A DNA stretch of 64,000 nucleotides from Methylosinus sp. H3A (GTDB lineage Bacteria > Pseudomonadota > Alphaproteobacteria > Rhizobiales > Beijerinckiaceae), in NCBI RefSeq assembly GCF_015709455.1, contig NZ_JADNQW010000005.1:1426001-1490000 (forward strand), written 5' to 3'. This document shows, one piece after another, positions 8,122-62,109 of the stretch. The position numbers and the translations under genes were made by a program. The first letter of the stretch is position 1, and each line of letters begins with the position of its first letter. The notes below the pieces were generated by a model, which was not told the DNA's origin, searched no databases, and was given only the letters and a program-made list of their open reading frames with translations.

Positions 8122-8266
8122 CCTCTCCTCGCATGCGGGGAGAGGTCGAGCGAAGCGAGGGTGAAGGGCTCGGGGCGTCCGGGTCGGCGCCGAAGCGATC
8201 GGCGCATTCGTCTCGTCATCGAAATTCGGGACAATTCCCCGGCCTCTCCCCGCGAGCGGGGAGAGG
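8122..8266. repeat. Two CCTCTCCCCGC-type palindromes before ppc
   Basis: Two hairpin units lie in the 190-base gap between mtkB and ppc: 8122-8145 (CCTCTCCTCGC / GCGGGGAGAGG) and 8243-8266 (CCTCTCCCCGC / GCGGGGAGAGG). They belong to the same broad family as the repeats near 12.1, 18.3, 36.0, 59.7 and 62.0 kb. No gene is seen between them. Confidence 0.75.
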
Positions 8267-8300
8267 AGACCACCCGCCTCACGAGAGCCAGGAATACTGC

Positions 8301-12075: not shown

Positions 12076-12128
12076 CCTTCTCCCACTCGTGGGAGAAGGT
12101 GGCCCGGGGAAGCCGGGTCGGATGAGGG
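12076..12128 (+). repeat. 53-base palindromic repeat, family B, left copy
   Basis: A unit beginning CCTTCTCCC and ending GGTCGGATGAGGG. It contains a short GGGAGAAGG palindrome and a GC hairpin. It matches the inverted copy at 12358-12410 at about 47 of 53 positions. The two copies bracket the DUF559 remnant. Confidence 0.85.
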
Positions 12129-12136
12129 TTCTCGCA

Positions 12137-12429
12137 ATGCCGACGCGAGTCTCGAAGTCCAAAACCGCATTCGCGAGAAGGCTTCGGCGCGAGATGACGA
12201 ACGCCGAGGAAATCCTCTGGCGTTCGTTGCGCGGATCGGCGCTCGCTGGCTGCGTGAACAGGGTTACCATGTCCTCCGCCTCGACAATGATCTCGTCATC
12301 GGCGGCGGAAATATTCCGTTGGAGCGGGTTCGGGAGGCGATCGCAAATCGTCGCGGACCCTCATCCGACCCGACTTCGTCGGGCCACCTTCTCCCGCAAG
12401 CGGGAGAAGGGAGAACACGAAGATCGTAG
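12137..12429 (+). pseudogene. DUF559 (endonuclease-like) gene remnant
   Basis: A broken DUF559 gene. Translation from ATG 12137 gives the family N-terminus (FARRLRREMTNAEEILWRSL). At about 12244 the frame shifts, and the other frame gives the family C-terminus (RWLREQGYHVLRLDNDLV, then VIGGGNIPLERVREAI) to a stop at 12427-12429. The central part, where the family carries its nuclease core, is missing. This is what an internal deletion with a frame change would leave. DUF559 proteins are small, putative endonucleases. The reading is from remembered family patterns, so the call is firm on shape but not on ancestry. Confidence 0.7.
12358..12410 (-). repeat. 53-base palindromic repeat, family B, right inverted copy
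   Basis: An inverted copy of the 12076-12128 unit, differing at about 6 positions. It overlaps the last codons of the DUF559 remnant, whose reading frame runs into the repeat. Confidence 0.85.
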
Positions 12430-12439
12430 GGCGGCCCTT

Positions 12440-12463
12440 CCTTCTCCTGCAGGCGGGAGAAGG
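12440..12463. repeat. Short palindrome before gckA
   Basis: CCTTCTCCTGC / GCGGGAGAAGG followed by GAGAACACCGAAG. The same trailing sequence (with one base less) follows the repeat ending at 12410, so this looks like a local partial duplication. It ends about 10 bases before the gckA ribosome-binding site. Confidence 0.7.
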
Positions 12464-18332: not shown

Positions 18333-18370
18333 CGCGTCTCCTTCTCCCGCTTGCGGGAGAAGGAGACGCG
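18333..18370. terminator. Shared hairpin between convergent genes
   Basis: A perfect 18-base stem (CGCGTCTCCTTCTCCCGC / GCGGGAGAAGGAGACGCG) with a TT loop. It contains the family B palindrome core. It lies between the convergent GTPase and hisS genes and probably works as a bidirectional terminator, although it lacks a T-run. Confidence 0.6.
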
Positions 18371-35978: not shown

Positions 35979-36011
35979 CGCCCCTTCTCCCGCTGAGCGG
36001 GAGAAGGGGCG
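35979..36011. terminator. Repeat-derived hairpin after acnA
   Basis: A perfect 15-base stem CGCCCCTTCTCCCGC / GCGGGAGAAGGGGCG with a TGA loop. It is a member of the CCTTCTCCCGC repeat family, placed 19 bases after the acnA stop. Confidence 0.65.
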
Positions 36012-59603: not shown

Positions 59604-59789
59604 TTCGAGGCCCCCGTCCTCTCGTTCCCCCGATTCGCGGGAGAGGGAGTCTTCGACGTCTCGCGAACCTTTGATGAAGCGCCGAATCTGCGCCCTCTCC
59701 CGCGAAGCGGGGGAGGGTCGGGGAGGGGGCTCGAGCGCCCTTCACATTCGGTGATGCGACTCAGTCGTCCACGCACGACCGCCGACTCA
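59604..59789. repeat. Repeat cluster between convergent efp and vsr
   Basis: It contains degraded CCCTCTCCCGC-type palindromes (for example CGCCCTCTCCCGCGAAGCGGGGGAGGG). No gene is seen. It probably serves as the shared 3' end of efp and vsr. Confidence 0.6.
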
Positions 59790-61443: not shown

Positions 61444-62109
61444 TCACGGCGGGTTCGCGGAGCCTTTGCCGCTTCCCTCTCCCGCGTCGGCGGAGGAGGC
61501 TGTGGGAGGGGGCTCCACCCCGAGCGCCTGCAATTGCGCGCGTTCTTCCTCCGTCAGCGCGAGCGCGCCGGTGCGTCGCCGGTCGCGTCGCACCGCGGCG
61601 TAGATCGCCCATGCGCCGCCGAGGAGAGCGATCGCGGGCGCGGCCCAGAGCAGCAGCGTCTCCGGCTTGACGGGCGGACGCAGCAGCACGAAATCGCCGT
61701 AGCGCGCAACGACATAGTCGCGCACTTGGGCGTCGCTCGCGCCGTCTTTCAGCCTCTCGCGCACGATGACGCGCAAATCCTTGGCGAGAGGCGCGTCGGA
61801 ATCGTCGATCGACTGATTCTGGCAGACGAGACAGCGCAATTCGCTGGCGATGGCGCGGGCGCGCGCTTCGAGCTTGGGATCGGCGAGGAGCTCGGAGGGC
61901 TCGACGGCGAAGGCGGGGGTAATGCTCGACAGAAGGGCGACGACGATGTGCGCGGCTCCCCTCTCCCGTGCGCGGGAGAGGGTGGCTCGACGAAGTCGAG
62001 ACGGGTGAGGGCCCGCGCCGAAGCCCTCATTCGCCGCGCATTCGCGTGGCGCCTTCTCCCGCAGGCGGGAGAAGGGGAGAACGGCGAGTTGACGCAACAT
62101 TCCCATCAT
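61444..62109 (-). CDS. ccmH: Cytochrome c maturation protein CcmH
   Basis: A 221-residue inner-membrane protein that reduces apocytochrome c for heme attachment. The redox motif is ELRCLVCQNQSIDDSDAPLA. A membrane helix lies near residues 155-175. The signal peptide is unusual: after MMGMLRQLAV comes a stretch of about 42 residues encoded by palindromic repeats before the normal VVALLSSITPAFAVEPSE. Its start overlaps the ccmF stop (ATGA). No later ATG or GTG start exists in frame, so translation probably begins before the repeat. Confidence 0.9.
   Translation of the reverse strand: MMGMLRQLAVLPFSRLREKAPRECAANEGFGAGPHPSRLRRATLSRARERGAAHIVVALLSSITPAFAVEPSELLADPKLEARARAIASELRCLVCQNQSIDDSDAPLAKDLRVIVRERLKDGASDAQVRDYVVARYGDFVLLRPPVKPETLLLWAAPAIALLGGAWAIYAAVRRDRRRTGALALTEEERAQLQALGVEPPPTASSADAGEGSGKGSANPP
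61958..62075. repeat. Family B repeat pair inside the ccmH signal sequence
   Basis: Two units, 61958-62011 and 62024-62075, in opposite orientation with a 12-base spacer. Each has the CCTTCTCCCGC-like core and the CCCTCATxCG tail seen at 12.1-12.4 kb. The arrangement equals that flanking the DUF559 remnant, but without cargo. Confidence 0.8.

Follow-up and report, generated by a model that had tools for sequence, protein, structure and literature searches.

In the systems built from repetitive extragenic palindromic (REP) sequences and REP-associated tyrosine transposases (RAYTs), known as REPtrons and REPINs, short palindromic units stand in facing pairs, the enzyme gene lies between inverted units, and further units without a gene are scattered through the genome. 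Members of the IS200/IS605 group are not known to duplicate their target. Miniature inverted-repeat transposable elements (MITEs) are short, have terminal inverted repeats and share these ends with an enzyme-bearing parent, and the EDxHD/Vsr-like homing endonucleases are selfish nuclease genes. Here we analyzed a 64,000-nucleotide stretch of Methylosinus sp. H3A (contig NZ_JADNQW010000005.1, positions 1,426,001 to 1,490,000; hereafter the window), in which the remnant of a DUF559 nuclease gene lies between two inverted palindromic units at 12076-12410. Such framing turned out to be usual for DUF559 genes, and we think it likely that the DUF559 element is a small mobile unit, in which the gene for a Vsr-like PD-(D/E)XK nuclease lies between oppositely oriented palindromic units whose tails more often point toward the gene.

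The first-pass annotation had described an inverted pair of 53-base units around a decayed DUF559 gene, and both parts of this description held. The unit at 12076-12128 is identical to the reverse complement of 12358-12410 at 47 of 53 bases, far above shuffled sequence. Against a 54-base query unit, essentially the right arm, the left arm (12076-12129, plus strand) scored 48/54 and the right arm (12357-12410, minus strand) 54/54, compared with best matches of 28 to 32 of 54 in 20 mononucleotide shuffles of the window; these shuffles, like those used below for linkers, preserve base content only. Together with the control open reading frames (ORFs) described below, they rule out a chance origin of the bracket. 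Each unit consists of the palindrome CCTTCTCCC-N6-GGGAGAAGG, a short spacer, a small second palindromic hairpin and the tail GGATGAGGG; in the left arm, GTGG precedes the second hairpin. Between the arms, the remnant (12137-12357, plus strand) retains the N-terminal third of the gene, as seen from the profile match and from alignment to six sister genomes: positions 2-33 of PF04480 match window 12158-12253 (E = 2.5e-4; 23 bits at a cut-off of 20.6), and 142 bp are gone near 12245/12246, a loss that takes out the catalytic core and puts the downstream sequence out of frame. The element in the window is dead, with both arms intact and its gene deleted internally.

Enrichment of inverted repeats at intact DUF559 genes, which the same annotation had made its test, was pronounced. 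From a single scan of species genomes that yielded 564 relatives, we took the best 80 as named loci, which by record title come from Alpha-, Beta-, Gamma- and Deltaproteobacteria, Nitrospira, Chloroflexi, Omnitrophota, Planctomycetota, Gastranaerophilales and others; 77 were usable, as L080 and L065 gave artifactual matches, owing to masked bases and to a C-only run, respectively, and L119 lay at an edge. A locus was scored by the best inverted match between its 220-bp flanks, which began where the profile or tblastn match stopped for DUF559 and at the ORF ends for controls, with a threshold of 16 or more. By this measure, an inverted-repeat bracket was present at 59 of the 77 DUF559 genes versus 5 of the 869 remaining ORFs from these loci (Fisher test, P = 2.6e-71). 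Small gene size did not produce it, as only 2 of 249 neighboring ORFs of at most 600 bp were bracketed. Further sets gave 19/25 in the class search (30 loci, at most the best one per genome) and 20/24 in the genus, and 5 of the 12 loci examined in a plasmid collection, where 44 records had a DUF559 match, also reached 16 (Sphingomonas, Sinorhizobium meliloti Ak57, two Deinococcus and Pseudanabaena). CT-rich hairpins lay on both sides of 105 of 126 DUF559 genes, on one side of 18 and on neither side of 3, whereas among 604 control ORFs, drawn from the first 60 of the named loci, the respective numbers were 0, 63 and 541. The bracket is real, recurs widely among DUF559 genes and is not due to chance.

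Two details define these counts. L090 (named loci) and L035 (class search), which agree in length and position, apparently represent the same contig, and both are within the 126; L090 was excluded from the correlation, target-site duplication and motif tests below. Partial or fused genes (L004, L005, L014, L028, L029, L055-L058) stand outside all counts. Three of these (L004, L028, L029) carry the DUF559 domain within long ORFs of 1874 amino acids (G000, the window's own genome, and G002) or 1404 amino acids (G001; G001-G009 denote the other genomes of the genus), which from reading the sequence we take to be helicase-like. Three standalone DUF559 genes are intact in the window's genome. L002 carries arms of the window's repeat family and L003 has units on one side only. 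The L001 gene is flanked on either side by a complete double unit of another family (CCCTCCCC..GGGGTGGGG), and the two double units are almost identical. The L001 double units, at 1322-1446 and 1919-2043 of that locus, are in direct order, a composite-like layout.

Across phyla, the typical arm has a hairpin such as CCCTCTCCC..GGGAGAGGG followed by a tail such as TTGGGGTGAGGGG, and in some repeat families a second, variable hairpin stands between the first hairpin and the tail. In the motif test on 97 bracketed loci, the tail pointed toward the gene at 66, away from it at 10 and both ways at 2, with 19 not assignable. A GTAG/GTGG head before the stem was found at seven of the 97, all of this genus, and was lacking at the other 90; in the genus CTTCTCCC family (L002, L012, L019, L020, L021, L023 and L026), GTGG immediately precedes the second palindrome and resembles a REP head. 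The DUF559 unit appears to have no general GTAG head, and it is longer than a REP, with its hairpin, optional second hairpin and tail. The tail GGGTGAGGG is a near repeat of the 3' hairpin strand GGGAGAGGG, so that CCCTCTCCC might pair with either. DUF559 open frames frequently extend beyond the gene into the arms, with C-terminal peptides such as SDPTSSGHLLPQAGEG; annotated DUF559 proteins may therefore bear translated repeat as tails.

Presence of the repeats followed presence of DUF559. We searched 96 genomes from 95 families of the window's class with a strict pattern for the GRTGAGGG superfamily, whose reversed form gave zero matches in all 96. Of the 26 genomes in which DUF559 was matched at E < 1e-20, 20 contained the pattern (466 matches), as opposed to 4 of the 70 without such a match (13 matches; p = 8e-12); the latter split into 2/12 with weaker DUF559 hits (G043, G054) and 2/58 with none (G011, G020). 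The contrast was 17/19 versus 0/20 when genomes smaller than 3.0 Mb were set aside, and DUF559 genomes lacking the pattern can hold other unit families, for example at L042 in G096. Y1_Tnp, the RAYT family, was unlinked to the repeat (3 of 24 repeat-bearing versus 11 of 72 other genomes), and the window's genome had no Y1_Tnp match at E <= 1e-10. Because DUF559 genes are usually framed by repeats and the same repeats are scattered, gene-less, in DUF559 genomes, DUF559 may drive orphan repeats of this kind, a large class in bacteria.

Arms and enzymes also appear to vary together. On visual inspection, each DUF559 clade in the genus tends to keep to a single repeat family, with the exceptions of L002, whose arms are of the same family as those of the L012 clade although identity is about 51%, and L024, which is unbracketed. 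Over 158 non-orthologous pairs in the genus, only 4 of them above 60% protein identity, protein identity correlated with arm similarity (Spearman 0.458, p = 5e-4, 2000 permutations); for the other loci grouped as Alphaproteobacteria the coefficient, uncorrected for shared descent, was 0.353 (p = 0.002).

In two paralog pairs the element has arm-to-arm boundaries. The G065 paralogs L253 and L255, which occupy separate locations, match each other between CCCTCTCCC and GGGAGAGGT and are at about shuffled level outside, and the likeness of the G021 paralogs L238 and L240 runs from outer hairpin foot to outer hairpin foot, with about shuffled level beyond. Sites with and without the element were found as well. 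At the L002 site, G008 and G006 have only 22 and 33 bp, respectively, between matched flanks, and arms and gene are absent together, so that at this one examinable site the repeats were not seen to have arrived independently of DUF559. The same site holds 67 bp with one hairpin-like stretch in G003; its flanks lie about 13 to 15 kb apart in G001, G002 and G005 and had no match in G004, G007 and G009. On two Deinococcus plasmids (L199, 2968-3309; L259, 1468-1806), DUF559 occupies different gaps of the same hpa operon: in Deinococcus proteolyticus it lies between hpaB and an oxidoreductase gene, and in Deinococcus sp. NW-56 between the oxidoreductase gene and hpaE, which overlap in D. proteolyticus. 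In strain NW-56, hpaB is followed by a VOC-family gene and no DUF559; each gap with DUF559 is thus DUF559-free in the other species. Intergenic DNA of the genus was too diverged for its genome comparisons to yield exact insertion points, and for the S. meliloti locus no other record covered 80% of the query.

Target-site duplication was undetectable. With element ends taken from arm alignment (up to 3 bp of play), a direct repeat of at least 4 bp was present at 9.3% of 54 elements, compared with 6.9% (standard deviation, 3.3) expected from re-paired flanks. A MITE of a DDE transposon was therefore rejected, and with it one part of the earlier suggestion of a MITE- or REP-like element once mobilized by DUF559. 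The remainder of that suggestion was supported overall. Gene-less and gene-bearing DUF559 pairs share their ends in a short element with terminal inverted repeats, as in a MITE and its parent, and DUF559 elements resemble REP/RAYT systems in showing no target duplication. The REP/RAYT parallel that had been drawn applies to the layout; it does not extend to the enzyme, which there is a Y1 HUH transposase and here a Vsr-like PD-(D/E)XK nuclease.

Profile A1 of the enzyme matched, among solved structures, 3hrl (E = 6.5e-36), I-Bth0305I (3r3p, 8e-4) and, weakly, Vsr (1cw0, 0.28). A model of the L002 protein (mean predicted local distance difference test score, pLDDT, 84.8) gave the same order in Foldseek, with 3hrl at 1.2e-7, I-Bth0305I at 1.1e-3 and Vsr at 8.8e-3, 3hrl alone being below 1e-3. 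The EDxHD/Vsr-like homing endonuclease I-Bth0305I is thus the second-best solved match. Invariant residues in A1 are E19, D47, E58, D60 and H64; this conserved set of E, D, ExD and H fits a PD-(D/E)XK site, in which it presumably serves catalysis. The fold is also that of the mismatch-nicking Vsr and of Caulobacter VsrA, which is reported to have a DUF559 domain (PMC12907096). What may set the standalone DUF559 genes studied here apart is their bracket of repeats. VsrA is required for an SOS response in Caulobacter cells without a cytosine methylase (PMC12907096), and DUF559-type proteins can therefore probably damage DNA in living cells.

Gene-less pairs of the same units are frequent. We located the cargo-less pair that had been reported within a gene labeled ccmH by the first-pass annotation (61958-62075); its left arm (61959-62012, plus strand) scores 44/54 to the unit and its right arm (62022-62075, minus strand) 34/54. 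It occupies the same site in 8 of the 10 genus genomes and is therefore old. At the corresponding site (window 61950-62085), G005 has one collapsed hairpin resembling the outer halves of both arms, and G006 has a pair of a different repeat family. In G000, where pair orientation was counted on those 43 of 78 unit matches that reach the tail, 17 of 19 pairs were (+)(-) and 2 were (-)(+), with 5 units single. Two of the 17 bear a gene; gene-less pairs thus share both arms and the (+)(-) layout with gene-bearing ones. In G069, (-)(+) was by eye more frequent among the matches listed. Scattered gene-less facing pairs are, in our judgment, probably non-autonomous relatives of the DUF559 element. 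The window also holds palindromic hairpins that resemble related families, as pairs at 8122-8268 and 59624-59716 and singly at 18339-18362 and 35984-36006.

The window locus itself, which lies between what we take from reading the ORFs to be malyl-CoA lyase-like and glycerate kinase-like genes, varies within the genus. An open DUF559 frame stands between the same arms in G001, G002, G004, G005, G007 and G009; the gene is frameshifted in G008, and no DUF559 is present in G003 and G006. In the six species with an open frame, a complete second, gene-less pair adjoins the DUF559 element, and in its place G000 and G008 have one hairpin (in the window at 12440-12463, where it forms a third, half-length unit).

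Taken together, the best reading of these data is that DUF559 is probably the engine that moves the repeats, the movement itself being something we infer. DUF559 would recognize the unit, hairpin plus tail, once it is extruded or single-stranded, and would nick or cut at the outer hairpin foot; the pair, with or without the gene, could then be copied to a new place by repair. More speculatively, pairing of CCCTCTCCC with the tail would leave a mismatched T, the type of lesion read by Vsr proteins.

Several observations weigh against this reading. No movement of any element was observed, and copies sharing a genome are old, with 67-82% likeness in the longer matches, so that current activity is not shown. 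Eighteen of the 77 named loci fell under the bracket threshold, as did 7 of the 12 plasmid-collection loci, E. coli ycjD included: Synechocystis and Picosynechococcus reached 12.5, and two E. coli records, Azospirillum, Sinorhizobium sp. K101 and Neisseria gonorrhoeae scored 7.5 to 10, some low scorers having units on one side. In the G102 pair L250/L251, the likeness continues for some 930 bp outside the element, and its site may therefore be shared by descent or through a larger duplication. Across classes, the correlation of protein and arm was weak (0.122, p = 0.04, uncorrected for shared descent). Caulobacter VsrA, a DUF559 protein, has been assigned a role in mismatch repair (PMC12907096). 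The linkers of gene-less pairs, finally, are mostly unlike DUF559 ends. Only 4 of 21 exceeded all 30 shuffles, one of the four being the intact L002 element itself and another spanning an ordinary gene, with a pair finder that was incomplete (27 pairs out of 157 units). Beside the window locus, alignment of the second pair's linker to the 3' end of DUF559 outscored each of 500 shuffles in four of the six genomes (G001, G004, G007 and G009), equaling the best shuffle in G002 and not exceeding it in G005, but these four are copies of one element and hence not independent. An internal DUF559 remnant within a gene-less pair was accordingly shown for one element only, and since most linkers show no DUF559 likeness, the idea that gene-less pairs in general are internal deletions of DUF559 elements gained little support.

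The main rival, which we regard as unlikely, is that DUF559 is a homing-type passenger, cutting gene-less pairs that are spread by something else and being copied between their arms by repair. The presence of I-Bth0305I among the closest solved folds and the shared (+)(-) layout of DUF559-bearing and empty pairs are in its favor, and linkers that mostly are not DUF559 remnants would be expected if the pairs came first. However, repeats without DUF559 are rare, being present in 4 of 70 genomes, two of which have partial DUF559 hits; Y1, the one alternative mobilizer tested, was unlinked; and arms and gene are jointly absent from the L002 site in G008 and G006. The DUF559 gene differs from I-Bth0305I in that its copies stand at numerous unrelated positions, for the most part between inverted palindromic ends of their own; empty pairs are spread in the genome as well, and no intron or intein was seen at the DUF559 loci read, though no search for them was made.

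It is highly improbable that the hairpins are ordinary functional elements, such as terminators or insulators, which by chance frame a small solitary gene, with nothing mobile involved. The units are indeed hairpins, largely intergenic and in some cases kept in place across the genus. Yet small neighboring ORFs hardly ever have the bracket (the 2 of 249 above), the arms of many families are inverted copies with a tail or second hairpin, repeat families differ between DUF559 clades, and the likeness of two paralog pairs stops at the arms. An explanation in which a RAYT (Y1) transposase moves the repeats as REPs, with DUF559 incidental, is scarcely credible: the general layout is that of REPtrons (PMC2817692) and the GTGG right before the second palindrome of the window family is REP-head-like, but the window's genome lacks Y1_Tnp at the cut-off used, Y1 does not follow the repeat across genomes, and the head before the stem is confined to seven loci of this genus.

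With DUF559 as the probable engine, repeat families in other bacteria come into view, among them BoxC of E. coli, RIME/ABC of rhizobia and Bru-RS of Brucella, all orphan palindromic families. One DUF559 gene of S. meliloti has a double unit of about 115 bp on either side, and ISRm16 seems to have interrupted the one on the right; these units may be Rhizobium-specific intergenic mosaic elements (RIME). In E. coli, ycjD, annotated as DUF559, lies between sapF and fabI (L201, 4498-5218; L192; L193). The gap between ycjD and fabI contains a unit of hairpin plus TTAGGGTGAGGGG, and E. coli genomes have a median of 13 places that match this gap; no such unit was present on the sapF side, and ycjD is not bracketed by our measure. 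The unit may be BoxC. A survey of stem-loop families found 22 BoxC copies versus 32 known, as we interpret its table (PMC2267715). At least 80% of the queried ycjD locus is present in 3362 of 5426 E. coli genomes. In two genomes outside that set, an efflux operon adjoins sapF; in the O157 one of these it extends to fabI and ycjD is absent, and the other strain was followed only part way. The comparison is uninformative about insertion ends.

On balance, we lean toward the view that many phyla have a second REP-type system, independent of RAYTs, whose dedicated enzymes are Vsr-like DUF559 nucleases. These would spread arm-gene-arm elements and gene-less pairs, and the system would include several long-known orphan repeat families, possibly BoxC with ycjD and the rhizobial RIME type. 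In the open-access literature, judged mostly by title and abstract, and with subscription papers and preprints outside the search, no link between DUF559 and repeats was found; a literature search by sequence led, among the papers listed, mostly to work on telomeres. Many bacterial genomes hold palindromic repeat families without a known enzyme, as stated for the CGTC-tagged REPs, which are palindromic, occur in Alphaproteobacteria, as DUF559 units do, and are said to be without a dedicated transposase (PMC3733652); no CGTC end was noticed on DUF559 units, although no dedicated comparison was made. For palindromic families without a known enzyme, the DUF559 bracket offers a testable one, also in laboratory strains through E. 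coli ycjD. If our reading is true, a nuclease of the homing and mismatch-repair type would have become an engine of transposition-like movement, and DUF559, a common domain whose structure is solved (3hrl) and which is named for its unknown function, would gain a role.
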